Part shown: one piece after another, positions 6,101 through 64,000 of the stretch
Numbering within the stretch: the first letter of the stretch is position 1
Layout: every line of letters starts with the position of its first letter
Assembly: GCA_034687125.1 (NCBI GenBank)
Contig: JAQGBZ010000024.1
Coordinates: 310,001-374,000 of the forward strand
Length of the DNA stretch: 64,000 nt
DNA from: Neelides folsomi
Taxonomy: Eukaryota > Arthropoda > Collembola > Neelipleona > Neelidae
Reading direction: 5' to 3'
Program-made: the position numbers and the translations under genes
Notes under the pieces: model-generated
Told to the model about the DNA's origin: nothing
The model's database searches: none
What the model saw: only the letters and a program-made list of their open reading frames with translations

Positions 6101-7705
6101 TACCTAAATGTATTTATGTATAAATGTTAATTACACGATGCTTGAAAGCAAGTCTTGCCTATAATAGCAAGTACTGAAACCTCATTTTTAATTGTTCTCA
6201 ATCATTTGATCCTTTATTATATAATAAAGAACCAAATACGGACTGTAGAGGTTTTTCAAAAATTTAATTGCACAGTTAGTAAATGACATTTAGTAGGAGG
6301 TGAACTGAGAGGAGGAACACACGAAGAGGTAAAAAGAAATCCACAGCTGGATCACAAAACTTCAAATATTTCAAAAAAGCAACAAAAACAGAGTTGGTCT
6401 GAAGAGTCGTGAAACTCGAACTGAAAGCTCGGAAAAGTACGACACAAAAATGAAAAAAAGGGATAGAAAAGATAAGGTTAGAAAGAGACTAGCAGTAGGC
6501 AGTTGCTGTAAACTTACGTAGATTAATTTTGTATAGTAACGCTGCTTCAAGTTATGGAGTACGGAAGCGTCATTGAGGTATGTCAAGTTGGACATATCCT
6601 CTGCTTTTTCATACTTGGGCGGATTCACTTGTTGGACCAAGTCTTTCTTAAATGATTTTTCCTGAAATAGACAAAAGCAAACCGGTACATTGCTGTCCGA
6701 AACTCACATAGATTAATCGCGCGTAGTAACGCTCTTTCAGATTGTGTAACACGGCTGCATCACTCAAATAAGTCATGTCCGCCATATCCTCCACTTTCTC
6801 GAATTTCGGTGGGTTCACTTGGGCTATCAGGTCCTTTTTTAATGTCTTCTCCTGTAGTTGGTTTAGCTCATTTAACACCTTGTCAGTTTAATATTCGCGA
6901 ATTGAAGGTCAATTATTTGATCATGCTTCTTCAAAAAGTTCAATGTTACCATTTGGAACAATTTATACTTAATTGAAAATTAATTTATCATTCATTGACA
7001 AAGTTTCATAATAAGAGAAATGCGAATTAAAGAAAGTTTAATTTAAAAAAGTTGATAAACCTACAAAAAGCATTTAAGATTCCATTACGAAAAAGCTCGT
7101 TGTGATTGGATAATTATATTATTAGCAATTTCAAGAATTGGGCAATAATTGTAGATTATTTGTTTCGTGCTTTATAGATCATATTTTTTCATCAAACATT
7201 TTAATTAAAAGTGAACTTTGAGGAAGTTCCGAGTTAAATGTACTGGCAATGAAGATCTTTGTGTTACATCATAAGGCGGAGATGATTCCATTATTATAAG
7301 TTGGCAAATCGGATTCTCATGCTCCTTTGTAATCGAATGGTTAGGCATTTGTATATAAATTATAGATGAAGCTGTTGTTGAATTCCTCAAACATTATTAT
7401 TTCATTGTCGTGAGCCGGAACCGACTCGTCATTGTTAGATATGTCTTATAATATGTGAAGAAAGTATTAGGAAATGAAGAATGTAATAATTTCATTACCT
7501 CCCCACCGGGAATCCCCACGCTCACGAGGTCTCCCTTTGTTGACCGAATCTCACCCAGGACGTAGCCGTCCTTCTCACATGGGACCCAGCAGGCCTTTTT
7601 GGCATCGTAAGGCTTCGTCTGATCGATTCTCTTTTGTTCAAGAGAAACGAAGAGGAATTCAGTGGGGTCGGGGTCAGGACCCTCGGACTTCTTCTCTACC
7701 ACCAT
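50..7705 (-). CDS. Mhc: Muscle myosin heavy chain, 5' part of gene (partial, continues past left edge)
   Basis: Encodes the N-terminal motor region of a class II muscle myosin, the actin-based ATPase of thick filaments. Exons read on the minus strand: 7499-7705 (start ATG at 7705, 69 codons, SH3-like N-terminal region), two alternatives 6708-6851 or 6518-6661, 3861-4017 ([17 protein letters not shown], then [19 protein letters not shown]), 1864-1891, two alternatives 1556-1655 or 898-994 (Walker A GESGAGKT), 202-294 ([20 protein letters not shown] = switch 1) and 50-113 ([21 protein letters not shown]). All junction phases agree (0, 0, 1, 0, 0 and so on) and the joined peptide follows the myosin head without gaps. 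The rest of the motor and the coiled-coil rod lie beyond position 1. Large introns (4018-6517, 1892-3860, 295-897) show no further myosin exon to my eye. Confidence 0.95.
202..294 (-). CDS. Mhc: Mhc exon with switch 1
   Basis: 93 nt, 31 codons, [20 protein letters not shown] then [16 protein letters not shown] is the switch-1 loop that closes on the gamma-phosphate of ATP. Acceptor CATATAG, donor GTATGT. Phase 0 at both ends. Confidence 0.93.
898..994 (-). CDS. Mhc: Mhc alternative P-loop/loop-1 exon, copy B
   Basis: 97 nt: one base completing Thr, then 32 codons: [20 protein letters not shown] followed by [12 protein letters not shown]. The first 19 residues are identical to copy A; everything that differs lies in loop 1. 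The donor is AAG followed by GTTTGT, weaker than the GTAAGT of copy A. Loop 1 composition and length are known to tune ADP release and sliding speed in class II myosins; the effect here is inferred. Confidence 0.9.
1556..1655 (-). CDS. Mhc: Mhc alternative P-loop/loop-1 exon, copy A
   Basis: 100 nt: one base completing Thr, then 33 codons: [20 protein letters not shown] followed by [13 protein letters not shown], donor GTAAGT. Holds the Walker A phosphate-binding loop and the surface loop 1 at the 25K/50K junction. Shares acceptor phase and donor phase with copy B at 898-994, so either can join to the exon at 202-294 (GSLEDQVVQ). Confidence 0.9.
1864..1891 (-). CDS. Mhc: Mhc 28-nt microexon (RENQSMLIT)
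   Basis: Acceptor ATTTCAG and donor GTAAGT bracket 28 nt. With one base from the exon before and one from the exon after, it gives [10 protein letters not shown], the strictly conserved stretch between the preceding head segment and the P-loop. Without it the frame breaks, so it is constitutive. It is too short for ordinary gene prediction. Confidence 0.9.
3861..4017 (-). CDS. Mhc: Mhc exon: N-terminal motor segment
   Basis: 157 nt, acceptor AACAACAG, donor GTAAGT, ending in phase 1. Residues [19 protein letters not shown], then [19 protein letters not shown] and [13 protein letters not shown] are standard myosin II head sequence just before the P-loop. The insertion-free match to the family and the phase agreement with the 28-nt microexon at 1864-1891 support both boundaries. 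Confidence 0.93.
6518..6661 (-). CDS. Mhc: Mhc alternative exon 3, copy 2
   Basis: Second 144-nt version of the same head segment ([20 protein letters not shown] ... RYYTKLIY), acceptor ATTTCAG, donor GTAAGT, phase 0 both sides. Differences from copy 1 cluster at charged or polar positions near the start (AQ/QQ, F/Y) and in the middle ([10 protein letters not shown] versus [10 protein letters not shown]), while the core LHNLK-RYY and LIY is kept. The gap to copy 1 is only 46 nt. Confidence 0.92.
6708..6851 (-). CDS. Mhc: Mhc alternative exon 3, copy 1
   Basis: Exactly 48 codons ([20 protein letters not shown] ... RYYARLIY), flanked by acceptor ACTACAG and donor GTGAGT, phase 0 on both sides. 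It covers about residues 70-117 of the head, the same segment that is encoded by the mutually exclusive exons 3a/3b in Drosophila Mhc. Its partner at 6518-6661 has the same length and phase and about two thirds identical residues. Joining both would duplicate the segment, so only one can be used per transcript. Confidence 0.92.
7499..7705 (-). CDS. Mhc: Mhc first coding exon
   Basis: Sixty-nine codons from the ATG at 7705 to a GAG followed by the donor GTAATG. Residues run from [14 protein letters not shown] through the N-terminal SH3-like subdomain ([18 protein letters not shown]) and end IPGGE, where arthropod Mhc genes also place the junction to alternative exon 3. The next exon starts in phase 0. 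The exon's upstream part is 5' UTR. A candidate acceptor lies about 20 nt before the ATG, so whether the leader is spliced is not settled. Confidence 0.92.
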
Positions 7706-7843
7706 TTTGGATCCTCCTTGGCTTTAGCAGATGATGAGACGATGAGAATTTGATTCGGCTCTTTCGAGCACGGACGGTGGAATTATTTTTCTGGTTGGGA
7801 AATGTACGAACAGCACTTGAAAATGAACAGCCCTTGAGCTTTC

Positions 7844-16100: not shown

Positions 16101-19100
16101 GGATATTTTGGGTAAATCGAATCAGGATTTGGAAAACTTTGGATTTTATACACAAAGTGAAGATTTTGAGGAATTTCCGCTTCCTCTTCAACTATTTCAA
16201 AGTGAATTGATTCATTTCCTTGATGATGCATGTTCAGCAACTGATGAAAAACTATTCTTGTACTATACATTATTTATATGCCTACACTGACTACCTAGCG
16301 ATTATATCAATAGATTTATAATAATATCAAAATTGTACTAGAGATGTAAAAGTAGTAATATTATAATTTTTATTATAAAATAACATAATTTGATGTTATT
16401 TTACGATGATTATGTTATTATAATTTTAATCTTTTTATTTTCAGTTCCATTATTCGCTTCTATATTAATATATTATCAATTGTTCCTTCCGGCGTGGATT
16501 ATTTTCAAAATTCTCTTGAGTCTATACTGAGATTTGCTTATCTTAAGGATAATTTCGATAATATTAACGGAAAAGTCATTTTAGACTTTTGTCATGCAGT
16601 TATTCCGAAAGTGTAAGTTCATCAACACTTATTACTTATTATTTATTTCAAGTAAATAAGTCAGGTACTCAAGTACATGACGAACATACAAAAATTAGAA
16701 ATGAGCAAAATCTTGATGCAAATGTAGTTACTGATTTTATTGTATGCAAATCTCAATCAATATCCGCTATTGTTCACACTTTACCCCTCACTCATTGTGG
16801 CATCTTTATTGTATTCCATTGATTATGCTTTCATGTATTTCAATGTTTAAAGTGTTGGGTGCTGAAGTGTTTTTTAATTGCTAATTTACTATTAATTACC
16901 AGATAATAACAATCATTTTAAACTCATTTACATTTTAATATTTTCATTTTAATCATTTATAGGACGTGTCTTAAACAAACCATTCAATTTCAATTTGTTT
17001 CATATTTTGAAAAACAATGCAGAATTTCTGATATAGAAGAACTTTTGTCATGCTCATACTTATTAAATTACTGCAATGATGAATCCTTACGTCCAAAAAT
17101 CTGGAGATGTCTTCAAATTGTTGATAGTCGAGGTAATAAAGAAATTTGGATTGAAGAGAGCATCTTGGAGCTTACAATGATTTTGAACCTGATCACTGCT
17201 TACGTCCCTTATTGGTAATTTGTGCTGATTCATTATAACTAGAATTATTCAACCCTTGGATTTTAATATTCTCAATGCATCACGTAGTAGAGTACACCTT
17301 TTGACTCCATTGTTATAATGAATTGAATGTGACGTTGTTAGTTGAGAACAATATTTTTGAAAGTGACAACATAATTGGGAAATCTAATATATATTTATTA
17401 TTCATTTCTTTCATGGTGTTTATATTTGCTTGCTAGTGATTTTCATGCAGAAGATGAAGGATCCAGTGAAAGCCTTGACAAAAGGTTTCTTCCGTTCATT
17501 ATTAAAGAGCGCTTCTTTGGACCCATTCTTGTAAATTTTCCCATTTATAATAATATATTTAATATTTTATGTATGGTATGTTTGTACTATGTACATACAT
17601 ATTCAACCTTTGGCCCTTGTGTTGGCTTGATATAATAGATTCAGAATTTTTATGGTTATTTTCAGGAACTTGTATATCAATCCGATGAAAACATTTTTTC
17701 AGAAGATAAAAATTACGGCCATACAATTTTGAAACTTTTAAATACCTTTTGTCTGAAAGAATTCTCAACAAAATGTTCTCCAGACGTTAGTCAGACGGAG
17801 TGTGACACACAGTTTACAGAGACAATGGATATCGAAGAATGCATGACTTATGGTGAACTTTTTCTCAATTTCTTGGAAAAGACATTGAGAGAACAGAAGG
17901 CAATTAAATTTACATCTGCTGTTTATCAGATCCTCACAGTCTTCCTGGAAAATGAGACCAGTGTCAATATTGGAAACGTAAGATTGTATGCATGACCAAT
18001 GCTAATTAAAATTGACAGAACATTTGCCCTCATTATTAAAGCATTAAACATTTATACTTTGTATAAAAACTTAAATGGATTGAATTTTGCTCTTTAGACG
18101 ATCAATTTGGATCTTTCATGCATGAGCCTATCCTCCTTGTACACTTCCAATGAACATTTAAACGTTCTGGCTTTGCTATTCCAAAGGGATTTTCATTCAG
18201 CTTTTATTACGGTACTTAATTGGAATCAAACACATTCTTCTAAACGCCTGTGACATACAGGGAGGGCCATAAGTATCTTTCTTTTTTAATGGGCTACCAT
18301 TTTATTGTGATTAAAGATAAAAATCTTTAAACATCAGCGATTTGTGTTGAATATATCCATCTACAATGAAGCAAACTAAAAACTGATTTGGTCAAAGCAT
18401 AAATAAACGACAGCTACTTTTCTTTGAGAAAGCGCGAACTTTGGAACTTGATGGATAGGACGGGGCCCGACGAGGCGCTTTTCCATGTCCTCCACGCTCT
18501 CCAGATCTCACTCTCTTGGACTTCTTTTTATGGGGTTTTGTCAAAACCAGGGTTTACGCCAAGATTCCATCAACACTTGATGAAATCAGGCTGGAATAGT
18601 CGAAGCGTTTGCAGAAGTTCAGGTTACTATGTGCAAACGTGGATGTGAAGCTGTCGTTTGTTTGCGTTTGCAACGCTGTCTTAAAGCTGATGGAGCTCAA
18701 GTGACAAAACGATATTACTGAATATATTATATAATATATAAGCATTACCATTGCCAAATGTTAGAAAAATTGTAAAAGATTAAAAGAGATACGAGCTGAT
18801 TAAAAAAAAGAAAGATACTTATGGCCCTCCCTGTACGTAAGGTACATAATATCTAGGGATAAATTATTTTGTTTTTCTTATAGCTCGACGAACAAGTTGA
18901 AAAGGAAGAGTTTTTAAAGACCGTCCAAGGACTCTACATCCATGTTCAAAGCTTAATTTTGAAGGTGGGTTACTCATTTAATCTTTATTTCCCTTGTGCT
19001 ATTTTCATAATTAGGGAAAGTCTCCACTTTTAATTCTTCTTATTTTAAAGTTAAATAGACGAAAGTTAAGATGTTATGTAAATTGAAAAATCAATTTCTC

Positions 19101-36500: not shown

Positions 36501-39500
36501 GCATGTTTGGAGTATATTCGAAAATTTCATAAATTACATCTGTAAAGTTGTTCAGCACAATTGTGCTGATTCAATGGAACTTTGGCAAGATCGGTTGTAA
36601 TCATGTATTGGATAATTCCTTCTATGAAGAAAATTAATTTTAAGTCTCAACGACAAATGGATCAAGAATATACAAGTGATTATAAAATTGGAATGTATCA
36701 ATGTAATGGGATTATTTCTATTTTCTTGACGTTTGCTAATTGAGATGAAATTTTTTTCCTACTCTTTAGCCAATGGGAATTTGGGTAAAAACGATCTGAA
36801 CTTATCCATATGCTCTTTATACCAAGAAGCAAATCATTTAAAACTACCTCTTGATGCTTAAGTGGGGGGAGCCATGCTAGATTTTATAATAAAGAAGCTT
36901 GGGAAGCGTCTTTTGCGTACAACTTTGCTCGTCAGATCAGGGTCAAATTTCTCCAAGAAATCGGATCATTTAAGGGTTCATAATGTCAAGAATGACATTT
37001 TACTGGAAGAAAATTGATGACGAAGATTGGGAGATTTACAATAGGAAGATCTGGGTAAAATCTGGGAGGTTTTTGTACTTTTTTCATATCGGTTTGATCA
37101 TTTAAGGTATTTGTCATATACGCATTGGTGTTGGGTTACATATTCTTCTAAATGATTACTTTCATATTTGCTATAAACTCAGAACTGATTAGCAATTATT
37201 GTTTCAAGTTCCATTTGTCCTATATAAGAATGAAGTTATAATCATTAATCATTTTCATACAATGATCATTTGACACATTATGACACAAATTGCCAAGAGT
37301 TGGAAGTTGAGGTTAAAGGGAATCAAAGGTTCTCCTTTGAAGATAAATTCATTCCTACAATTTGCATTGCTCCAACTTTTAATCATTGTATTCATTCTCT
37401 CGCCTCCTTTGTGTTGAAATTTTAATCCGACTAATGACAATCATGTGCATTCATTGATATATCCATATCCGGCTTATCATTGGATATATCCGCCCAATTA
37501 TGAGGATTTCATAAGTGGTAACAACTGTTGGGTGGAGACGTGAAGTGAAATCTCAACTAAATATTTCTTTTTATATCTTGCAGCAAACCGTACAGGCTGG
37601 GCAGATGGCCTATGCTGGAGGAGCAGGCGGAGGTCTGCAAAACGGAGACTTGTCATCTGCAGGCGTCGTTCTTCAGCAAATGAAAGTTGACAAAGAATTG
37701 GGTCAAAATTACAGTCCAAATTCTGGAGTTGGAAGTCAGACGGTGGAGATTCAAACGGTAAGCTCTCGTACATTTAATTATCCAGAGTCGAGAATAATGG
37801 ATTTTATAATTTTAATGGGAAGAGACCGAGAGATGAACGATTGCATAATGTATGACTTTATATATGAAATTTTAGCAAACAGAGCCAGAGCCGGAGGGTG
37901 GAAATGGGCTTCTCATGGCTGGAGTCACCGTCGGTGGAATCGCACAAGGGACGTCAACGGGGACTCAGAATTCAAATGACTCAAATTGTTTGGCTAAACA
38001 CCAACCGAAACGTCTCCACGTCTCGAACATCCCATTCCGATTCAGAGATCCAGACCTTAGAGCCATGTTCGGGGTAAGATTTTTTTCTTCTTCTTTGTCC
38101 TCGCTTGATTTATGAAATCTTTGCTTTTTCGTATGCTTGGAATAGATTCGATATCCTACATAGCTCAATGTTGTACAAAATTTGTACAACACTTTTTTAA
38201 TCCTAATTGTTCTATAGATTATAAAATTCTAAAATTTTCGATAAAATAGTCTTATTAAGTCTTATTGACTATTATATGAAGTTGTGGGTGTGTGAAAAGG
38301 ATTTAATGTTGGATAAAAAGCCTTTTCACGCTGAATTAAGTTTTCAGCAAAAGTCGTTATTTTATAATATTTCCATCTTCTTCTGTGGCGTGGGGGATAT
38401 GAAGATCTCCTAGCGGAGTCTTTACTCACTTTGACTTCTAGTCTTGATGCATATTTCATTGAATAAATGTCCTTACCTCTCCGCCTTTACATAGAAGAAA
38501 AGTGGGAAGAAACTGAGGAATAAATTCTTCACGTTCAAACTCAACTTTTAAGCTTCATTGGTTGAAGTGCGAATTCAACCATCAAAGTTATGGAGAAAGG
38601 AGTGAGTAAGTATTTGACTCGAAGTAGGGGGGCGGAAGGAGGAGAAGAGAAATGGCCAAAAAGAGAGTCTTAGAGAAATAAAGGCTCTTAACTCGAGAGA
38701 GAAAGTGGGAGAGATATAGAATAGATAAAAATTTAAAGTGTTCTCCATAAGTGGTCTCAAAATGGTTTTATACCTGACTTCCTCTTTTAAATCTTTCCCT
38801 ATTCCAAAAAATATGGAGAAATTAGAGAACAATTTATATTTCATTCCGAGATTTTACCGATCCTTTTCTTTTCTAAAAAAATAAATTCATTCTTATAATG
38901 TGATTTTCCTAGATATTCTTTCCAATATTTTCCAAAAAATCCTAATGTCTTTTTGGAATTATATTTCAATGCTTTTATTACTACGCATGGACATGGACCA
39001 TAAATATAAAATGAAATAGTTGGGAAAGGAACATATAAATAAAAGTATGTTGAATGGGTCATATATGGAAAGATCAATTTTATTAAATGATCTGTGGAAT
39101 ATCTTGTTAAGCTTTTAGCTCCATTTTAGTTTCCATTTTACTCTTGGATAGTTTGGATAGATGATGAGGAAAACTGCAGGTGACTTTGGAGTGGAAGACC
39201 ATTTGGGTGTCCACTACTCTGTCAATGATCCCCATTTCCATGACGACGATGGATTGGATTTGGTTTTTATTTGGCCTCTTGAGATTTGATGAGACCAGGG
39301 GGACAGCTCGGTTGTTCTCTCCGTATTCTCAACTTTCTTGCTCTATCTCCCTTGTAATGGATTGTCTTAGGAGAAGAAGGAAAGGCTGTCAGGGAGAAAT
39401 GTTCAAAATCTGCCCTAGTCCTTTTATTATTCCTTTCACCTTTTCTCTCAAGATCCATCTTCGGGTTTTCCTCCAATGGGCTCTCCTTAATCCAATCCAC

Positions 39501-48500: not shown

Positions 48501-51500
48501 TGTCAACCTCCCTCTTTCCTCCCCATCACTTCTCACTTGAGGCGAAGAGTGAATTTGTTTTTAAATTTTAATAACCTTCAATGTGGCCCATATGAGGGGC
48601 GTTTATTGAGATTAAAGGCTCTTTCCTATTAGCCTCAAGTGGATCGTTTGGGAAGTTGGGGAATGTCCTTTTTGGAGCTTCATTAGCCCAAATGACTCAC
48701 TAAACTCGATCCATGGCGAAGAAAGGGAGTGGGAAGGACCAATTAAGGACTTTACACATTATATACATCTCTTTCACAGGACACCGACTGTTGTTAGGAA
48801 ATGGTTTATTAGAAGGGGGAGAAGACCCAGAGAACGACACTTTTAATTTATTGTTGAGTAAAGGGCTAATTTATTGAGGTATTTTTATCCTCATTGTTAA
48901 ATTAGGAGGGGAGTTTTATTTGATCCGCATTGCGTAGTGGGGAATATTCCTATATATGGTAAAGAAATGGAATGAGAGAGAGGTTTGGTGAAGGAAAACT
49001 CGGGAATTCTTGGGAGCGTTGGTGGGTTTTGGGGGAAGGAATCAGGAGAGAAGGCGACGCTTTCCACTTTCGCACGTGCCCTGGCTTGAAATTCCAAAGT
49101 GAGTCCCTTTGTCACCGAATGCTTCGACTTCTCATTCAATCGCATTTTCATTTCTCACGTTTCATCCCAAACTCGGTGTTCTCCGTTTCCCTTTGCGGAG
49201 CTTCCACACCAGAGAACAAACACATTGTGGATTTTGACGCATTTTGCTCTCCTCATTTGTTAGCAAGTCTTGCTATTATAACATTTTCGATTTAAGTCCT
49301 TTGATTTATAACCACAAATTCATCATTTTCTTTTATTAATGTTGTTTTAAGTTCTTTTGAGTAATCCTCCTCCTTGTTATTTTGAGAAAACCTTTTCCAG
49401 GAGAATTCTTGTTATGTTAAATTTCATCAAGTCTGTTTTGAATTGCTTTAATATAATAATATTTACTTTGATTTATTATTACTATTCTTTGAGAGAAAAG
49501 AGAATGAATGTTTTAATCGAGACACGCTACTTTGTTTACATTATGTAAACAAATATTCTATTTTCCTCTTTAACTTTCCCTTTCTCTTCTGAAGTGGAGC
49601 ATCAGAGAGAGAAAAACCCAGGGGTTTGCAACCAATCGGCCCATTTATTTTAATATATACGGAATTGAATCATGCTTTATTCATCCTTGGGCATTTTAAA
49701 AACCCATACATAAAAAGGATACACATTAAACATAAATACATAAAAGAGAGTTGCTTTTTGAAATTCACCTTTAATTCTCAGCACATTCTTTTTACACACC
49801 CAGACGTTTGCATTGAATGATTTGCGTTGCGGCCTTTAAAAAGCCCAAACTTCTTGCCCAATGCATGAAGAAATTGTGAATTGTTTTGATAAGAACTTTT
49901 TTTGTGTGTACACACTACTTGATGGAATTGGAATAAAATATTGGAATTTCAATAAATATTCTTTGGGTTTACATAAGATAACTATACATAAATACATAGT
50001 GTGTGCATCCCGAGAATTTTCAAATTGCTTTCTTCGATTCAAAGTTTGATGGAATAAATATACTTTCACTTTTTCCTTTTACAATTTCTTTCCTCCCTTT
50101 CTTCCTATTATTCTCTTTGCTTGGATTGACATTATGGATTGAAAGACACTTTGAAAGTATTGGATTTTGGATTAAATAACTGAAGGGTATTTTATCCTCT
50201 TTTTTTGTTTTCTTTTTTGACCCTGTATGATTTTTTGAATGCTGACTGGATGTCTTCCGAATTCACTTAACCTGTCTCCTTCGTCTCGTGAATGAAATAA
50301 ATAAAAACAAATAGTTGGAGCAATCCGTAACGCTGCGATGCTCCAGCGTGGTCTTGCAAGCCACCGACTTGCCACTGTGGCCCATCACCACCAGTCGCCA
50401 CTCGTTGGACAAAATAGCTCAGCCGCGGCGATTGCCGCCGCTGCCTTGGCACGTCAATCGTCGATCAATCTGAATGCGGCAGCTGCCAGTTTGCATGGAT
50501 TGGGACCGTAAGTTGATTTATTGCCTTTTCGTCTCCTTCACCTCTTCACCTCCTTAAAATGAACTTCTTTGTACCTTCTTCTTTCACCAAGCGACTTTCA
50601 CTTCTCTACCTCGTTTGCACCCGTTTGAATTCCCACCTTTGTTAGTTTGATCAACGGAACAATTTGATATTTATTACGTCTCGTTATTTACTTGTACTTG
50701 ACTTGCCGTGTTTTTTATTCTGAGAATGCCATATTTATAAGAATTTATACTTAATTAATATTTACGATAATTAAAGGCAGTTTTTTCCCATCTGTGATCT
50801 GATAAGTATTTACAATGAGTGTGAAGCATTTTGAATTGATTATAACTACGTTTTTTAATGATTAAGTGTATCTTAACTTTTGAATGCAGATATTGGGATG
50901 AATTATGAGCAAATATTTTCTGCATGACATGAAAATTAATCTAATGAATTTCGCCTTTCCTTTTTGCGTCCATTGAAGTGGAGGATGTTAATTGGGAGAG
51001 AGAGAGAGTCATGTGGGTTCACTCCCAGAGAAAAGACATGAGAAAAGAAGGACGTCTTGTGAATTAGATTCCACTTCCAAGTGGATCAATAGAAAGACCA
51101 GATGATAATATAGAAAATTAAAATGGTAGAGCGGATCCTATTCTTCCCAATTCATATTTCTCTCACTTGCAAGAGACCTTACAAGAATATGAGTGGGATG
51201 ATTGGAAGCGTATAGCTGATAATTCAATAACTATTTATTACTATATGTATACCGATAGTTAATATAAGTTCTTTTTCTCCATGAAAGGAAAACTGCCGGT
51301 GAATGGCAGAGAAGAGAGTTCTTGGGCTCTCCAAGTCAGTAGGAGGGGAAATTTCTTAAAATGAATTTTATAAACGAGGTGGTAGAAATTTGAAGGACTG
51401 GATAGGTGAAAGTTTTTAATGAGGAAGAGTCGTCAAAGGGTAAAAAATACAGGGCAAACGAACGGAACCTCTTTCGAAAGGAAATCGAAAATTTGTGCCA

Positions 51501-54931: not shown

Positions 54932-56394
54932 ACAAAGTTCTCGTCGACGTCGTTTATTTCAACTGAAACAAAGATTTATTGATTTCCTAATTTACTCCTT
55001 TACAAGTTTGAATTGAACAAATACTTAAGTTTCCTAAATTTGCAAATCTCACGAGAGATCTGTTTAAGATGATAATTATATTATAGAAATTATTAATTAT
55101 ATTGAAGTTTAAATGTTAGAAGTGATAGGATAGAAGTTTTATGTAAAACTATTTAATTAATTGTCAAAATCTCATTCATTGTGCCAATTTACATCTTTAC
55201 ATATATTATTATACAATGCGTTTTGAAGCGAGAACTTCAAGATTTTCGAGAGTGAAGATGAAGCGTGTAGGATTCGGATTCTAGTTGTTCGCTGTAAGTT
55301 AAATGTTCAAATAGTTTAAAAAATTTATAACTTTTAGGATATTCTTCAAATTATTTCTCTTTTACTATTTTGTTTTCTATGAACTAGACTTATAGATTTA
55401 TTAATTTAATGAGTACTCAAATCCGAGTTTTTACGTACACGTTACGTACAATACGAGTCTTAGTCAGCCAGTATCAAATATCTTCATTTGGCTATGTAAG
55501 TTTAAGACAAATTGTTTATATAATTAAATAATAACTTCATATTTTACTTAAAAGTAAAAAGATTAACTCTATAATCACGATTGATATCATTACTATTCGA
55601 ATATTGTAGGATATTAAAAAATTAACTTTATGACAAGGGCGTCAACGGGAGCTAGCGATAAAAAACAAAGGAAAAAGAACAAATTGCAACAAGCAAAATT
55701 CTAATTTACATTACTAGATTTAAAATAATATTGTAATATCCTAGTGGTTTAGTCTTAAAGATCTGATATGTGAATCTTTGAATATTGGAAAGCTTGCACA
55801 ATGCAGCTAATTGTTAGTATTAAGATAATTATTAGGTTTATAAGGGATGTAATATCTCATTCAAAAATGAATCTCTTCAAGAAAGCTCATGATATAAATT
55901 CACAATTAATTAACTAATTAGGTATATTTAACTCAACATTGGCAGCTAACAATGTTAGTGTTTGAAAAGAACGCAGCTCCAACATTACTGATGCAATCAC
56001 TTTGACATACCTAAACTCACTGTTAACTTAAGCTAATGAGAGGTTAATTAAGCACAATGCAAAATTGGATACTCAATAAATACCTTAATATTCTCCCCTT
56101 TTCATTTACTATTTCTTCCCCGGCTTTCAAAATAGCAATTATGATTTTCTCCCCAGTGGCATTAGGACGGAGGGATTGACGAATATTTGCAATAATGTTT
56201 AGAACTTACAACTTCACACCATAAACTAAATCCAACGAGATATTTAAATACATGCGTTAACTCACATTATGCTAATATATAATTAGACACGATATAATAC
56301 TCCATTAACTATGATATCCCTCGCATTTATTGATTTTATTTTTAATTCTTGATTCTTAGATATTGTTTCAAATACTCTTTATTATTAATACCTA
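54932..56394. other. Rbfox 3' UTR and intergenic DNA
   Basis: AT-rich, no gene seen. The Rbfox 3' UTR lies in its first part; its end cannot be placed. Confidence 0.4.
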
Positions 56395-56396
56395 TA

Positions 56397-56767
56397 GTTC
56401 ATTCCCAAAATCGGTGCAGGTGAGTTTGAAAAACCCGCATATAATTTCCAGATACGAATTACAATTTCACTGTTACTATTAATTGTAGTAATGCTAATTT
56501 ATATTGTTTTTGAAAATGTTTAATGTTTATTTTATATTTTGGCCTCAATTTCATTATTTTATTTTTGCATTAAAACATCAATAAAATTCAAATGCAATGA
56601 AATGTTATTGAAATAGTTATGTATGTATTTTGTAGATGAGTAATGAATTGGTTTAAATATTGCATATGCAATACTACAATTAATTGTCACCATTAAATTG
56701 TAATTCGTATCTCTGGAAATTATATGCGGGTTTTTCAAACTCACCTGCACCGATTTTGGGAATGAAC
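56397..56767. mobile_element. TIR element 1 between Rbfox and the adaptor gene (371 bp)
   Basis: Ends begin GTTCATTCCCAAAATCGGTG on both strands and are flanked by TA (56395-56396 and 56768-56769). The inverted arms are near-perfect for about 70 bp and recognisable for about 110 bp. No coding sequence. A MITE-type, TA-inserting DNA element. Confidence 0.82.
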
Positions 56768-56816
56768 TATGTAGTGATAAACGTTTCCTAATTCAATATT
56801 TATTCTTATAAGTTTG

Positions 56817-58398: not shown

Positions 58399-61300
58399 TC
58401 AAATGTACTCAATACTGCTCTCGTCAATCTCCGTCGTCTTCTTCTTTTTCTTTTTATCTACACGGGCATAAAGTTGGGACAAATCCGCCACATCGGCCAG
58501 AGCACTCGCCGCAACTTGTTCAGCTTCAGCAAATCCTCTTGCTTCTTCTCTTCTCAACTGAGCATAAGCAATGTCTTCATAGAAGTTCGGTTCTTCTCGT
58601 AAATCATCATGTGATTCTTTAAGTCTCTCATACGGTGGGTATTTGACTCTCTCATACATTTCATCCACACGTTCTTCCTCCTCATCGGATCCTTCAACGA
58701 GAACGGGACCAGCAGGGAGTTTCCGAAGTTTTTCATACCCGTGTTTCTTCTCTTTGTCTACCTTGGCATAAAATGCATCTGGGTCAGCCAAACGTTCACC
58801 AATCTCTTGATAGAAACCATTTGGAACAGCAATGGTCTGATAATGATCCATCGGTTCTTCAGGTTCTTCCTCTCGATGTTCTTCAATCTCATTGTATGGA
58901 TTGGGAGCCAAGTCGTCAATTTCTTGGTAATTGTCTTTCCCACTGCTGCTCGCCACTAAAGTCTCACTCATTGCCTCTCGAACAACTTCGAACTCGGAAT
59001 AGGAAATATCAGCCTTGGACCATCGGCGAGGTTCTTCACGCACTGAGGGTGACGGAGGATTCTGACTAGAATTCGAAACAGTTGGAGTGAGCGGGGCTTT
59101 CTTCTTCTTTTTAGTGACTTGGGCGTAGAGGGGAGGTGTCGGATGAACGACCGTGCTGGTCGAGGCGATTGCTGGACTTTCGAGTGGAGAAGGAACAGGT
59201 GGAAGAGGAGAATTCGCCTCTCTTCGCTCAGGAATTGGAGTAGCGTTTGGACCGCCTATAATAACATTAACATCATTTATCATTTCATTTCAGAATAACT
59301 ACATACAGTATTTATTGATAAATTTAAAGAAAATTTACCAGCCCATGATGGGTGTCCATCTTCGCCTGAGATTCTCATATAATTATTTTCTGGATCTTCT
59401 ATTGCAGCGTACATCTCCTCTGTAAACAGAGTTGAATGGATTAAATATTTAAATAACATTTACAATTTTGAGTATTATATTAATAATGTAATGTTAGAAC
59501 TTTAATAATCAATACTATTTTTATTAAATGTAATATTTAAAATTACCCGAGTCATCAGAAACGGTAGCGTAATGAGAGTCATAATTCCGAGTATTTTTAA
59601 CTTGACTTCTAATATTTGATAAAGGTTCCCTAACGCTAATACTCGTATATCCCCTCGAATCTTGCGAGTCTCCAGAAAAATGAACTTGAACTGGTTCACC
59701 CTGTAAGAAATAATAAAATTCCGAAATTGTATAACTATTTGTTAATTCTGTTAATTAATTAAATCAATAAATATAATAGTCTAGTATAACACAGTTAAAA
59801 AATAATCCCGTACAGGCTGAGGTGGTCCAGGTGGTGGTGGGCCAGGATCATTACTTTGAGTTCTTCTCCACTGCCTTGCAACTCTTCTAGGCGGAACGGG
59901 ATTTTCGGGAGGGTCGGGTTCACCATTAGGGTTTAAATTCGGGGGCGGGTCATTTTCTCTCCTTCCACTTTGCGCGTAAGGTTGGGGCATGTCGTAATTG
60001 TCCGTGTCAGTCTCTTCATCTTGCAAACTTTCATTCCTCACCCTCGCGTAAGGGTTCTCAAGTTTCTTTAATTTTGCATATGGATGATTGGACCCATAGG
60101 TCTCGGAATCACTCGACGGTTGCGGTTCCTTCGACGTGGAAGGCTTCTCTTCTTTTGAGTATCCCACTGTGGCGTAGAGCTCCGACGTCCCATCGTGGCT
60201 CAAAACTGACGAACTTCGACGCGGAGGATTTTCAGGTGGAAGGTCAGGGAGTTGACGATGAAGCGTCGCCCTATTCAATTAAACCAATAATGAACTCGGA
60301 GAATATTGATTCACTTTAGAGAGCAGTGGTGTAAAATACAAAATGAGAGATATGAAACTAATTGTAAGTGTAATTTGTTATGAGATTAGGAGGAGGGAGG
60401 GAGAGCGATGAGAGAGAATGAAAGCGAAACGAGGAGATAGCGATGAAAGACACCTTTTGAGGGAGTCGGTGAGATGAAGGGATTCGGCGGGTGAAGGAGA
60501 TTCATCCCCTTGGGAGAATTGAAGCCCTGAAGGATCTGGATGGAGATCCAACTTCACCTCTCGGTTATTATTTGATGGCCGAGGACCGAACGGAACTTCT
60601 GACGTTGAGAGAATCGTCATCCGCCCTTCGACACCAAACATCTCTTCTCTGCTTGGTCGGAGGAGAGAACAGAAAAAACGGAAGCAAATTATAATTCATG
60701 CCGGGACGAAGCCAAATAATTCATCAAATAATATTACACAAATTATAAAAATCATAAATTAATCCACAATTGAATAAAATCTACTAATATTTAACATGGT
60801 CATGCGGAGAAGATATTTCACTAAACTTAACTCACTATTCTTATATCATACAAATACAGGTAGTTATCTTTAATTAAATAATATTAAACTTTGAGCTACC
60901 TCTTACAATAATACCTAATTAATGAACTTTATATTATACTTTCAAATAATTAAGGGGAAGAGTTAGCTTTAAATACGTTTCCATTTTGAACAAATATACG
61001 AGAGTTGGATTATTAATGTATTTAAGAGGTAAATACTTATTATCAGCATATTATAGATTATTGATATAATTAGTTTACTTACATATATTACAAATTTATA
61101 TAGATTTAGGCATATCTTCTTATCTTATGATAAAATGAAACCGAATGAATGTCTTTGATATCGAGTTTCTCGGTAAAAAATTTAAGATATGAAATTGATT
61201 TTGTAACTTCAAATGGGAGTTAGAATTGGTCCCTGTATTTGCTTAAATTCTCATACGAGCTTCATTGTTCGTATTCAAGATGAAATTAATACTTTTTTTG

Positions 61301-62331
61301 TTAATCGAGGAATGATTTTTCTTTCTTTTCAAATACAGTGCATTTTACATTGTGAGTGAGACGTGACATTCATTCAGACGCCAATTTTGGCTTTTGTCTT
61401 AAGAAACCAATTTTGAATTACTGAAAAAATATATTTTAAATATAAGATAATACATTAAATATTAACATTTAAAATTGATATATTGTTTAAAAACGAATTG
61501 ATCGAATTATTAATTTAATTATACATGTTCATTAAAAGTGCAGAGCTCCTAATTTTAATATCATTTAAAGAATTAATAATTAATATTTTAAATTAAGAAA
61601 ATTTAAGTATTTATTAAGACACCAATAATCACAATTTGCAAAACCTACAAGACTCATACATAATTTACAACGCCAAAATACTTTGCATTTATTAAAGAGC
61701 AGAGCTTTTATACCCAATCTACATACAATACTCATAGATTAGGCAAATAATAATAAATTATTAATCAACAAGATCACATTAAAGTCTACAGGTTAACTAA
61801 AGATTAAAGTACAAAACAGTTAATGATTAAAAATAAGTGAACAAAGAATCAACTACAGTTCAACATTACAAATCTACAACACTCATAAATGACAGGAGTG
61901 ACAGGTTTATATAACAAACGACATGAACACGTCAACACTACCCAAAACCAACCAAAGACAATAAAGAGTAAACAAGACCATATGATTAATGGTATACTTA
62001 ATTAGACTAATGCCCAACAAATAAGCCAATTAACTTTCCAACATATTCCGAGCAGCGAAAACCCATTAAAGTAAAGAGAGAAAAGGCGACCCGCAACAGA
62101 AAAGAAACAGTTTGGGAGGAGAGACGTCAGAGTCGAGAAGAAGAATTGTTGTTGAGTCTAGTTGTGGTAAACGATGACGTACTTTGTGTTTGAGCGACGG
62201 ACACAGCAGTGGTTGAGGATGCATTTGAGGAGGACGAGGACTCCGATGACGAGAGGGAGGAGGAGGGTCACGAGAAGCGGCGCCGATCCGATCCTCGCCC
62301 ACGCCAACTCATCCCTTGACAAGACGGCCAT
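58399..62331 (-). CDS. Transmembrane adaptor with many Tyr motifs and three ITAM-like sites (PAG1/Cbp-like plan, 631 residues)
   Basis: Six coding exons: 62183-62331, 60454-60651, 59814-60270, 59547-59700, 59339-59419, 58399-59255; all phases match, 1896 nt including TGA. Residues 1-15 are a short outer end, 17-35 a hydrophobic span (PLLVTLLLPLVIGVLVLL), followed by Cys 37, 42, 43 next to Arg-Arg, a likely palmitoylation site. The rest is a disordered cytoplasmic tail with Pro-rich SH3 ligands (LPDLPPENPP, PPPPGPPQP) and more than twenty Tyr-x-x-[VIL] sites (ELYATV, NPYARV, AFYAKV, QLYARV), some followed by poly-Lys. Three pairs fit Yxx[LI]-x6-8-Yxx[LI] at residues 323-336, 456-470 and 485-498. 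The C-terminus IEYI could be a class III PDZ ligand. Vertebrate PAG1 has the same plan (span, juxtamembrane Cys, LP-IPPE, YASVDRNKK), so an adaptor recruiting Src-family and SH2 proteins is inferred. Orthology is not shown. Confidence 0.85.
58801..58842 (-). other. ITAM-like motif 3 (residues 485-498)
   Basis: YQTI, six residues (AVPNGF), YQEI. Fits the ITAM consensus. Fifteen residues after motif 2. Confidence 0.6.
58885..58929 (-). other. ITAM-like motif 2 (residues 456-470)
   Basis: YQEI, seven residues (DDLAPNP), YNEI. Fits the ITAM consensus, with acidic surroundings typical of kinase substrates. Confidence 0.6.
59370..59411 (-). other. ITAM-like motif 1 (residues 323-336)
   Basis: YAAI, six residues, YMRI, preceded by EEM. 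Lies wholly in the 81-nt exon 59339-59419. Fits the consensus Yxx[LI]-x6-8-Yxx[LI]. Confidence 0.6.
62183..62331 (-). CDS. Adaptor exon 1 (membrane span)
   Basis: Begins with ATG at 62331 (MAVLSRDELAWARIGSAPLL) and ends at donor GTACGT in phase 2. Holds the single membrane span and juxtamembrane cysteines. There is no classical signal peptide before it. An upstream out-of-frame ATG at 62362 overlaps the start and could reduce translation. Confidence 0.8.
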
Positions 62332-63201: not shown

Positions 63202-63950
63202 TTAATCATAATCGTCTCCACATTGGTTTCTGTTATTCTGCCTGTCCTCTGGATTCAACTTAATGAGATCATCTATCCGAAGGATCGTGATAGCAGCCTC
63301 AGTTGCGAACTTGAGACTTTTGATCTTAGAAACCGCTGGTTCCAAAACTCCAACTTCTCTGTTGTCTCTCACAGTTCCTTCGTAGAGGTCAAGGCCATAC
63401 CTGTACCAAAGATATTTTATAGTTGTTATAAATATAAATACAAATTGTCACATCACATGAAAGAATAGTTTTTTTATAAATTAATTAATATTGATTTATA
63501 GTTTACCATTTGAGATGCTCTTGATCGGTTTTGGTCTGTGATGCATTGTGATACGCTCGAAGTTTAGCTACGAGTTCTGTAGCATCCTGAGCCGCATTCA
63601 CCGAGAGCGTCTTCGGAATCACTAAAAGAGACTTTGCAAATTCGGCAATTGCCAATTGTTCCCGAGAGCTCAATGATGTAGCGAAGTTCTCAAGATAAAT
63701 GCTTAAAGCAGCTTCAACTGCACCTCCACCAGGAACAACCTTTGAAATAATTAACACAAATTAATTAAAAATTAAGATGAATCAGTAATGTTGAAATATA
63801 TTATTACGTAAGGTATTTATTATTACCTTCTTGCTCTCACAGACTCTTTTGACAACGCAAAGAGCGTCATGAATCGATCGCTCCATTTCATCAACATAGA
63901 AATCATTCGGACCTCTGAGAAGAATTGATGCCGCAGTTCTCGCCTTCGGC
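63202..63950 (-). CDS. CCT1: Chaperonin TCP-1 alpha subunit (CCT1), 3' part of gene
   Basis: One of eight subunits of the cytosolic TRiC/CCT ring that folds actin, tubulin and other proteins using ATP. Exons 63827-63950 (PKARTAASILLRGPNDFYVD, then EMERSIHDALCVVKRVCESK), 63507-63739 (VVPGGGAVEAALSIYLENFA and EQLAIAEFAKSLLVIP) and 63202-63400 (YGLDLYEGTVRDNREVGVLE, AVSKIKSLKFATEAAITILR, IDDLIK), ending TAA at 63202. PGGGAVE and SIHDAL are CCT signatures, and AALSIYLEN with LVIPKTL is alpha-specific. The KIKSLKFATEAAITILRIDD segment is the returning equatorial domain with its ATP-site Asp. Junction phases are 0 and 2. The N-terminal two thirds lies beyond the right edge. Tail NPEDRQNNRNQCGDDYD is variable in the family. 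Confidence 0.95.
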
Positions 63951-64000
63951 CTGTAAATAACAATTAAAAATTAGTAAAAGAGTAAACACGAAGAAAAATA

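Follow-up and report, generated by a model that had tools for sequence, protein, structure and literature searches.

A predicted membrane protein of Neelides folsomi with a tyrosine-rich tail, a putative scaffold for Csk and Src

A predicted gene on the minus strand at 62331-58399 of the window, the 64-kb stretch of Neelides folsomi DNA analysed here, raises the question of what an arthropod protein would do with one membrane span and a long tail crowded with tyrosines. The earlier note had read this locus both as a PAG1/Cbp-like adaptor and as a multi-ITAM scaffold for Src/Shark signalling. We approached the question through the gene model, the statistics of the tyrosine motifs, the SH2 proteins and kinases of the same genome, and the search for relatives.

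Gene model and membrane span

Six predicted exons with GT..AG introns (Table 1) join computationally into a single frame of 631 codons, reproducing the six-exon gene and the 631-residue protein of the earlier note, and the result is a coherent and unusual, though predicted, gene model. The G+C content is 40-59% in the exons versus 16-37% in the introns, the exon 1 donor reads AAA/GTACGT, and the start codon, with an in-frame TAG two codons upstream of it, is flanked by A at -3 and by G at +4. Proteins longer than 400 aa came from 9 of the 96 splice combinations tried, one of the others among the nine likewise giving 631 aa; all nine have exons 3-6 in common and differ solely at the exon 1/2 junction, so that the tail from exon 3 onward is independent of that choice. 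The proposed frame of exon 1 has the lowest codon score of six (3.6 versus 17.3-30.4 in the other five), in a test biased by its training on the rest of the protein, a hydrophilic tail, and by its passing over stops; exon 1 still draws no support from this score.

The predicted protein has a short N-terminus, one strong span, juxtamembrane cysteines and a long tail. Its best 19-residue segment, residues 17-35, coincides with the span and has a mean Kyte-Doolittle value of 2.79, and every window from residue 51 onward stays at or below 1.0. The single span that had been claimed for this locus is present as one hydrophobic segment, as are the juxtamembrane Cys, three in number just behind it, and the Pro-rich SH3 ligands, predicted as three class I and two class II motifs. 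When the frames of 45 aa or more that start with ATG were screened on the two strands of the window, two showed a strong span that begins 5-25 residues in and has at least two Lys/Arg behind it, and Cys stand there in the exon 1 frame only.

This combination bears on a different reading of the locus, in which exon 1 is foreign or noncoding and the protein is a Dok- or p130Cas-like general docking protein that lacks a span and starts at Met 54 of exon 2 or in a missed exon. We consider this unlikely: the span rests on one splice over the 1531-base intron, and exon 1 has its poor codon score, is GC-rich and reads on its opposite strand as an acidic low-complexity frame, but exon 1 has a fitting phase, donor, ATG context and in-frame stop, and the filter retained no other frame of the window in which Lys/Arg and Cys come after a span.

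Folded alone as a single sequence, exon 6 gave a mean pLDDT of 60.7 and a pTM of 0.19, with pLDDT below 50 in 95 of 284 residues and helices without a convincing packed domain. The TRAP class is described as having few outside residues, one span and a long tail with several Tyr, with juxtamembrane palmitoylation in most members (PMC4861716). Few outside residues, a span and a Tyr-rich tail are all found in the six-exon model, and the protein predicted from it fits the TRAPs as a structural class, sharing with LAT, NTAL and LAX the anatomy defined in that source.

Table 1. Predicted exons and introns of the gene, in positions of the window
Feature	Position	Strand	Content
Exon 1	62183..62331	minus	Start codon; outside part of about 16 residues; span (about residues 17-35); Cys 37, 42 and 43; Arg-Arg
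Exon 2	60454..60651	minus	Cytoplasmic tail begins; pyrimidine-rich acceptor; donor AAG/GTGTCT
Exon 3	59814..60270	minus	Pro-rich SH3-ligand segments and first Tyr cluster (148 to 214)
Exon 4	59547..59700	minus	Tyr 286 (YTSI), 308 and 312 (YATV)
Exon 5	59339..59419	minus	EEMYAAIEDPENNYMRI, the first full ITAM-consensus pair (323/333)
Exon 6	58399..59255	minus	ITAM-consensus pairs 2 and 3 (456/467, 485/495); C-terminus IEYI; stop TGA included
Five-intron stretch	59256..62182	minus	Introns of 1531, 183, 113, 127 and 83 bases; stops in all three frames

Tyrosine motifs of the tail

The tail carries 27 Tyr, of which 19 have the form Yxx[VIL] and 12 the form Yxx[LI]. More than twenty of the former had been reported; the count of 19 is lower and still far above the mean of 3.7 and the maximum of 11 in 5000 tail shuffles, none of which reached it, and likewise 0 of 5000 shuffles (mean 2.3) reached the 12 Yxx[LI] sites. 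Sorting the tyrosines by the SH2 domain they might attract sharpened this picture. Sites of the Csk-SH2 type, Y[AST]x[VIML], number 10 against a shuffle mean of 0.88 and a maximum of 5, a stricter Csk-type form occurs seven times against a mean of 0.20, and Src-SH2-type sites occur five times against a mean of 0.43 and a maximum of 4, with 0 of 5000 shuffles reaching the observed count in each case. In these shuffles the Tyr positions were fixed, and the classes came from general SH2 preferences, were picked after the sequence had been read, hence not blind, and were applied to this one protein sequence. Ala directly follows Tyr in 10 of the 27 cases, and sites such as EEMYAAI, ELYATV and SHYATV share the form of the human Cbp peptide ISAMpYSSVNK, which binds the Csk SH2 domain with a Kd of 0.5-1 uM (PMC5071372). 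In PAG itself, phosphotyrosine 317 has been called crucial for Csk binding (PMC4861716).

The ITAM pairs gave a weaker signal. The full consensus D/E-x(0-2)-Yxx[LI]-x(6-8)-Yxx[LI] occurs at residues 323-336, 456-470 and 485-498, so the three pairs of the earlier note are all present, each with an upstream D/E; when Val is allowed at spacing 6-8 there are three extra pairs, 180/190, 312/323 and 509/520, rather than the two it had given. With the motifs kept and their positions permuted, the three Leu/Ile pairs at spacing 6-8 compare with 0.68 expected (P 0.025) and the six pairs with Val with 1.7 expected (P 0.003), and a denser null restricted to residues 300-631 gave P 0.033 and 0.023 at the same spacing. 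At spacing 6-12 there is no clear excess (P 0.20 for Leu/Ile, 0.079 with Val), and the P values of these several forms of the test are uncorrected for multiple testing. The ITAM spacing is thus only weakly non-random, and single sites of the Csk and Src types show a much stronger enrichment.

Sites of the ITIM type show no enrichment, with two observed against 0.92 expected and 1176 of 5000 shuffles reaching that number. The joined protein contains none of the YxN (Drk/Grb2), YxxM, NPxY or EVH1 (FPPPP-type) motifs. It does have two NPY motifs, a single YxxP and a single PPxY, the last overlapping a Tyr site. LAT and NTAL, by comparison, carry YxN (Grb2) sites. LAX is described as having multiple GRB2-binding motifs (PMC4861716).

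SH2 readers and kinases of the genome

A profile search of the genome for SH2 domains gave at least 31 matches, 30 of which were taken as loci, and the domains that the enriched sites would call for are among them. Compared with solved structures, the Csk SH2 exon matches CSK best (119.7 bits), ahead of Csk-homologous kinase (90.6), SYK (89.1) and SHP2 (65.9). Its alignment keeps the Glu of VEHYR, which the published positions of Cys119 and Cys122 place at 127, and Glu127 is reported to be the main determinant that sets Csk apart from Chk with its Src-like specificity (PMC10016382). An exon with SH3, SH2 and the start of the kinase matches Src (263 bits) ahead of Fgr (255) and Hck (248), and a Corkscrew/SHP2 relative reaches 350 bits to SHP2, again among solved structures. 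By eye, other SH2 exons resemble those of Abl, RasGAP, PLC-gamma, Crk and Drk. As an observation apart, the Csk SH2 exon (L009/L089), aligned to the numbering of PMC5071372, has Trp at the place of Cys122, which belongs to a disulfide reported there, and a Cys one place earlier. A further SH2 exon (L090:4403-4708; PF00017, E 6e-6) resembles by eye those of SLP-76/BLNK, a class of proteins that might partner with membrane adaptors.

Shark was not found. Among the 30 SH2 loci, the best matches to a first Shark SH2 sequence were Src and Csk, and the best to the second was an SH2B-like exon; an SH2-ANK-SH2 query, for which 105 of 254 candidates were scored, listed SH2 exons of Src and Csk only; and two exact patterns for the Syk/Shark kinase gave no match in the genome, in a search run without a positive control. 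A kinase survey with 132 of 503 candidates scored gave at least 181 matches, of which 30 search loci and 20 further stretches were inspected. Shark was therefore not detected in the assembly by four routes, which does not prove its absence, since introns could hide it.

One kinase considered as Shark, on contig C131, was rejected, as among solved structures it matched an EGFR entry first (396 bits, over two stretches), then ACK1 (251), and scored 203 bits to ZAP-70. A pattern scan of plus-strand frames in the 16 kb before this kinase revealed no clear SH2 exon, the only frame to show YLVR there matches no Pfam family, and a frame after the kinase resembles the Ack SH3 by eye only, also with no Pfam match. 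Elsewhere in the genome, ankyrin-type matches fall on 33 contigs, and 16 of these are also among the at least 86 contigs with kinase-profile matches (for example C639, C682, C699, C756, C532 and C563), some with ankyrin open frames of up to 1495 aa; the 16 possibly represent an expanded ankyrin-tyrosine-kinase family, a candidate grouping in which two of the 16 contigs, C26 and C69, carry kinases that are by eye of the Ser/Thr type. Five kinase loci (L043, L048, L049, L075 and L086) have HAD, HCD or HGD in place of HRD in the catalytic loop.

Possible functions and genomic neighbourhood

These data favour a single-pass membrane adaptor that would work like PAG/Cbp, as a putative scaffold for Csk and Src, a reading that we regard as evenly balanced between right and wrong. 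The enriched Csk-type and Src-type sites, the presence of Csk and Src exons in this genome, the Pro-rich ligands, the TRAP anatomy and the rarity of a span with adjoining Cys argue for it; the missing kinship with PAG, the codon score of exon 1, the missing YxN and YxxM, the unenriched ITIM-type sites and the missing VTRL weaken it. With almost no ectodomain, such an adaptor would be anchored on the cytoplasmic side of the plasma membrane by the span and the cysteines beside it, which may be palmitoylated if the gene is expressed as modelled. A Src-family kinase could dock on the Pro-rich motifs and phosphorylate tail tyrosines, whereupon the Y[AST]x[VIML] sites would bring in Csk through its SH2 domain and sites of the Y[QNE]EI type would retain Src through its own. 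Csk would then meet Src on the scaffold and switch it off, and the adaptor might thereby act as a local brake or threshold device.

The likeness to PAG1/Cbp is one of architecture. Both proteins have little outside the membrane, a single span with Cys next to it, Pro-rich SH3 ligands and many Tyr, among them sites of the form that Csk binds, and to this extent the earlier description as PAG1/Cbp-like stands; the family assignment it implied does not. A Pfam search with the joined protein returned no family, PAG included, at a limit of E 10, although the HMMER filters drop most matches above about E 0.1, and the PAG profile PF15347 found nothing in the genome, a weak result as the control was also silent. 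PAG is described with 10 Tyr, two Pro-rich regions and the C-terminal PDZ ligand VTRL (PMC4861716), whereas the window protein has 27 Tyr, ends in IEYI, and carries Lys clusters after three Tyr sites as well as ITAM-spaced pairs. The PAG/Cbp-like working is thus a proposal on paper, and membership of the PAG1 family is unsupported by the sequence. Wider searches were equally silent: in the 75-Mb genome the joined protein matches its own six exons only, at E up to 1; among solved structures it gave one chance-level match (E 0.9); and exon 6 had no confirmed relative among 117 and 315 pattern-matched stretches of viral contigs and prokaryote genomes, respectively, and none among phages. These last results are expected from collections that hold no eukaryotes and are uninformative on arthropod orthologues, one of which may already lie unnamed in arthropod proteomes.

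A more specific form of the adaptor reading, which we offer tentatively and hold to be rather improbable, is that the protein is a new arthropod membrane anchor for Csk that arose separately from vertebrate PAG1 and combines Csk and Src sites with ITAM-spaced pairs; one scaffold would then apply the brake on Src and could also serve as an ITAM chain.

The multi-ITAM reading proper holds that Src phosphorylates both tyrosines of a pair, that such pairs then attract the tandem SH2 domains of Shark/Syk, or else those of Corkscrew, PLC-gamma or PI3K, and that the protein could act in trans as an ITAM adaptor for receptors without a motif of their own. We judge it unlikely, although the three full-consensus pairs, the P value of 0.003 for six pairs with Val at spacing 6-8 and the Corkscrew/SHP2 relative in the genome would suit it. 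It would also suit the fly sensor of extracellular actin upstream of Src42A and Shark, which is given as unidentified in PMC5138034 and for which its authors suggest an ITAM/hemITAM receptor or one with an ITAM chain in trans. The consensus pairs of the proposed Src/Shark scaffold therefore stand, but the proposal as a whole is weakened because their spacing is barely enriched and loses its excess at 6-12, the Csk-type and Src-type sites are far more enriched, and Shark went undetected; for the suggested link to phagocytosis or immunity this analysis gave no evidence. Draper and MEGF10 resemble the window protein as membrane proteins with ITAM-consensus Tyr pairs for which a Src kinase is the expected writer. 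The Draper ectodomain is large and of the EGF type, whereas the window protein has no large ectodomain and probably many more single Tyr sites. Draper also has an NPxY motif (PMC8092387), which the window protein does not.

It is very unlikely that the protein is instead a junctional or cytoskeletal scaffold for which Csk is nothing special and whose YA-x-V sites with Lys clusters, Pro-rich segments and PDZ-type end bind cytoskeletal adaptors, for while a Lys cluster follows directly on each of the three Y-A-x-V sites at 390, 509 and 609 in exon 6, and the terminal EYI might serve as a PDZ ligand of class III, EVH1 and NPxY motifs are missing and the PPxY, NPY and YxxP motifs are as few as given above.

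Should the Csk/Src adaptor reading hold, the membrane anchor of Csk in arthropods would have a concrete candidate in this scaffold with its many Csk-type and Src-type sites. The scaffold would be a weaker candidate for what acts ahead of Src42A and Shark when flies sense actin, be it the sensor or an ITAM chain, and a design of vertebrate immune adaptors would occur outside vertebrates. A limited look at the literature, which included parts of a Csk review and of a Drosophila Csk paper, gave no account of how Csk is recruited to the membrane in arthropods and nothing on point on an invertebrate counterpart of Cbp/PAG, which is not proof of absence in print.

Several features of the surrounding window stand apart from these readings. 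The next gene upstream is represented by TCP-1/cpn60 chaperonin exons at 63202-63760 on the minus strand, with another likely exon of this type, by eye, at 63782-63970. At 56394-56770, some 1.6 kb past the 3' end of the predicted gene, lies what appears to be a small non-autonomous transposon: the arms of a perfect inverted repeat, 59 bases each, enclose 259 bases, and a second pair of 45 bases with 87% complementarity is nested inside. On the minus strand, 6374-7723 holds exons of a muscle-type myosin heavy chain, for which Myosin_N scores above its cut-off and Myosin_head, with 27.2 bits, stays under its own of 33.3; by eye, 6374-6703 and 6651-6887 look like two alternative versions of one myosin head exon. 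Also by eye, a plus-strand frame at 18459-18596, which has no Pfam match, resembles a mariner-type transposase fragment, and plus-strand pieces at 37515-38112 and 50305-50508, of which the part at 37868-38074 likewise has no Pfam match, resemble an Rbfox-type RNA-binding protein.
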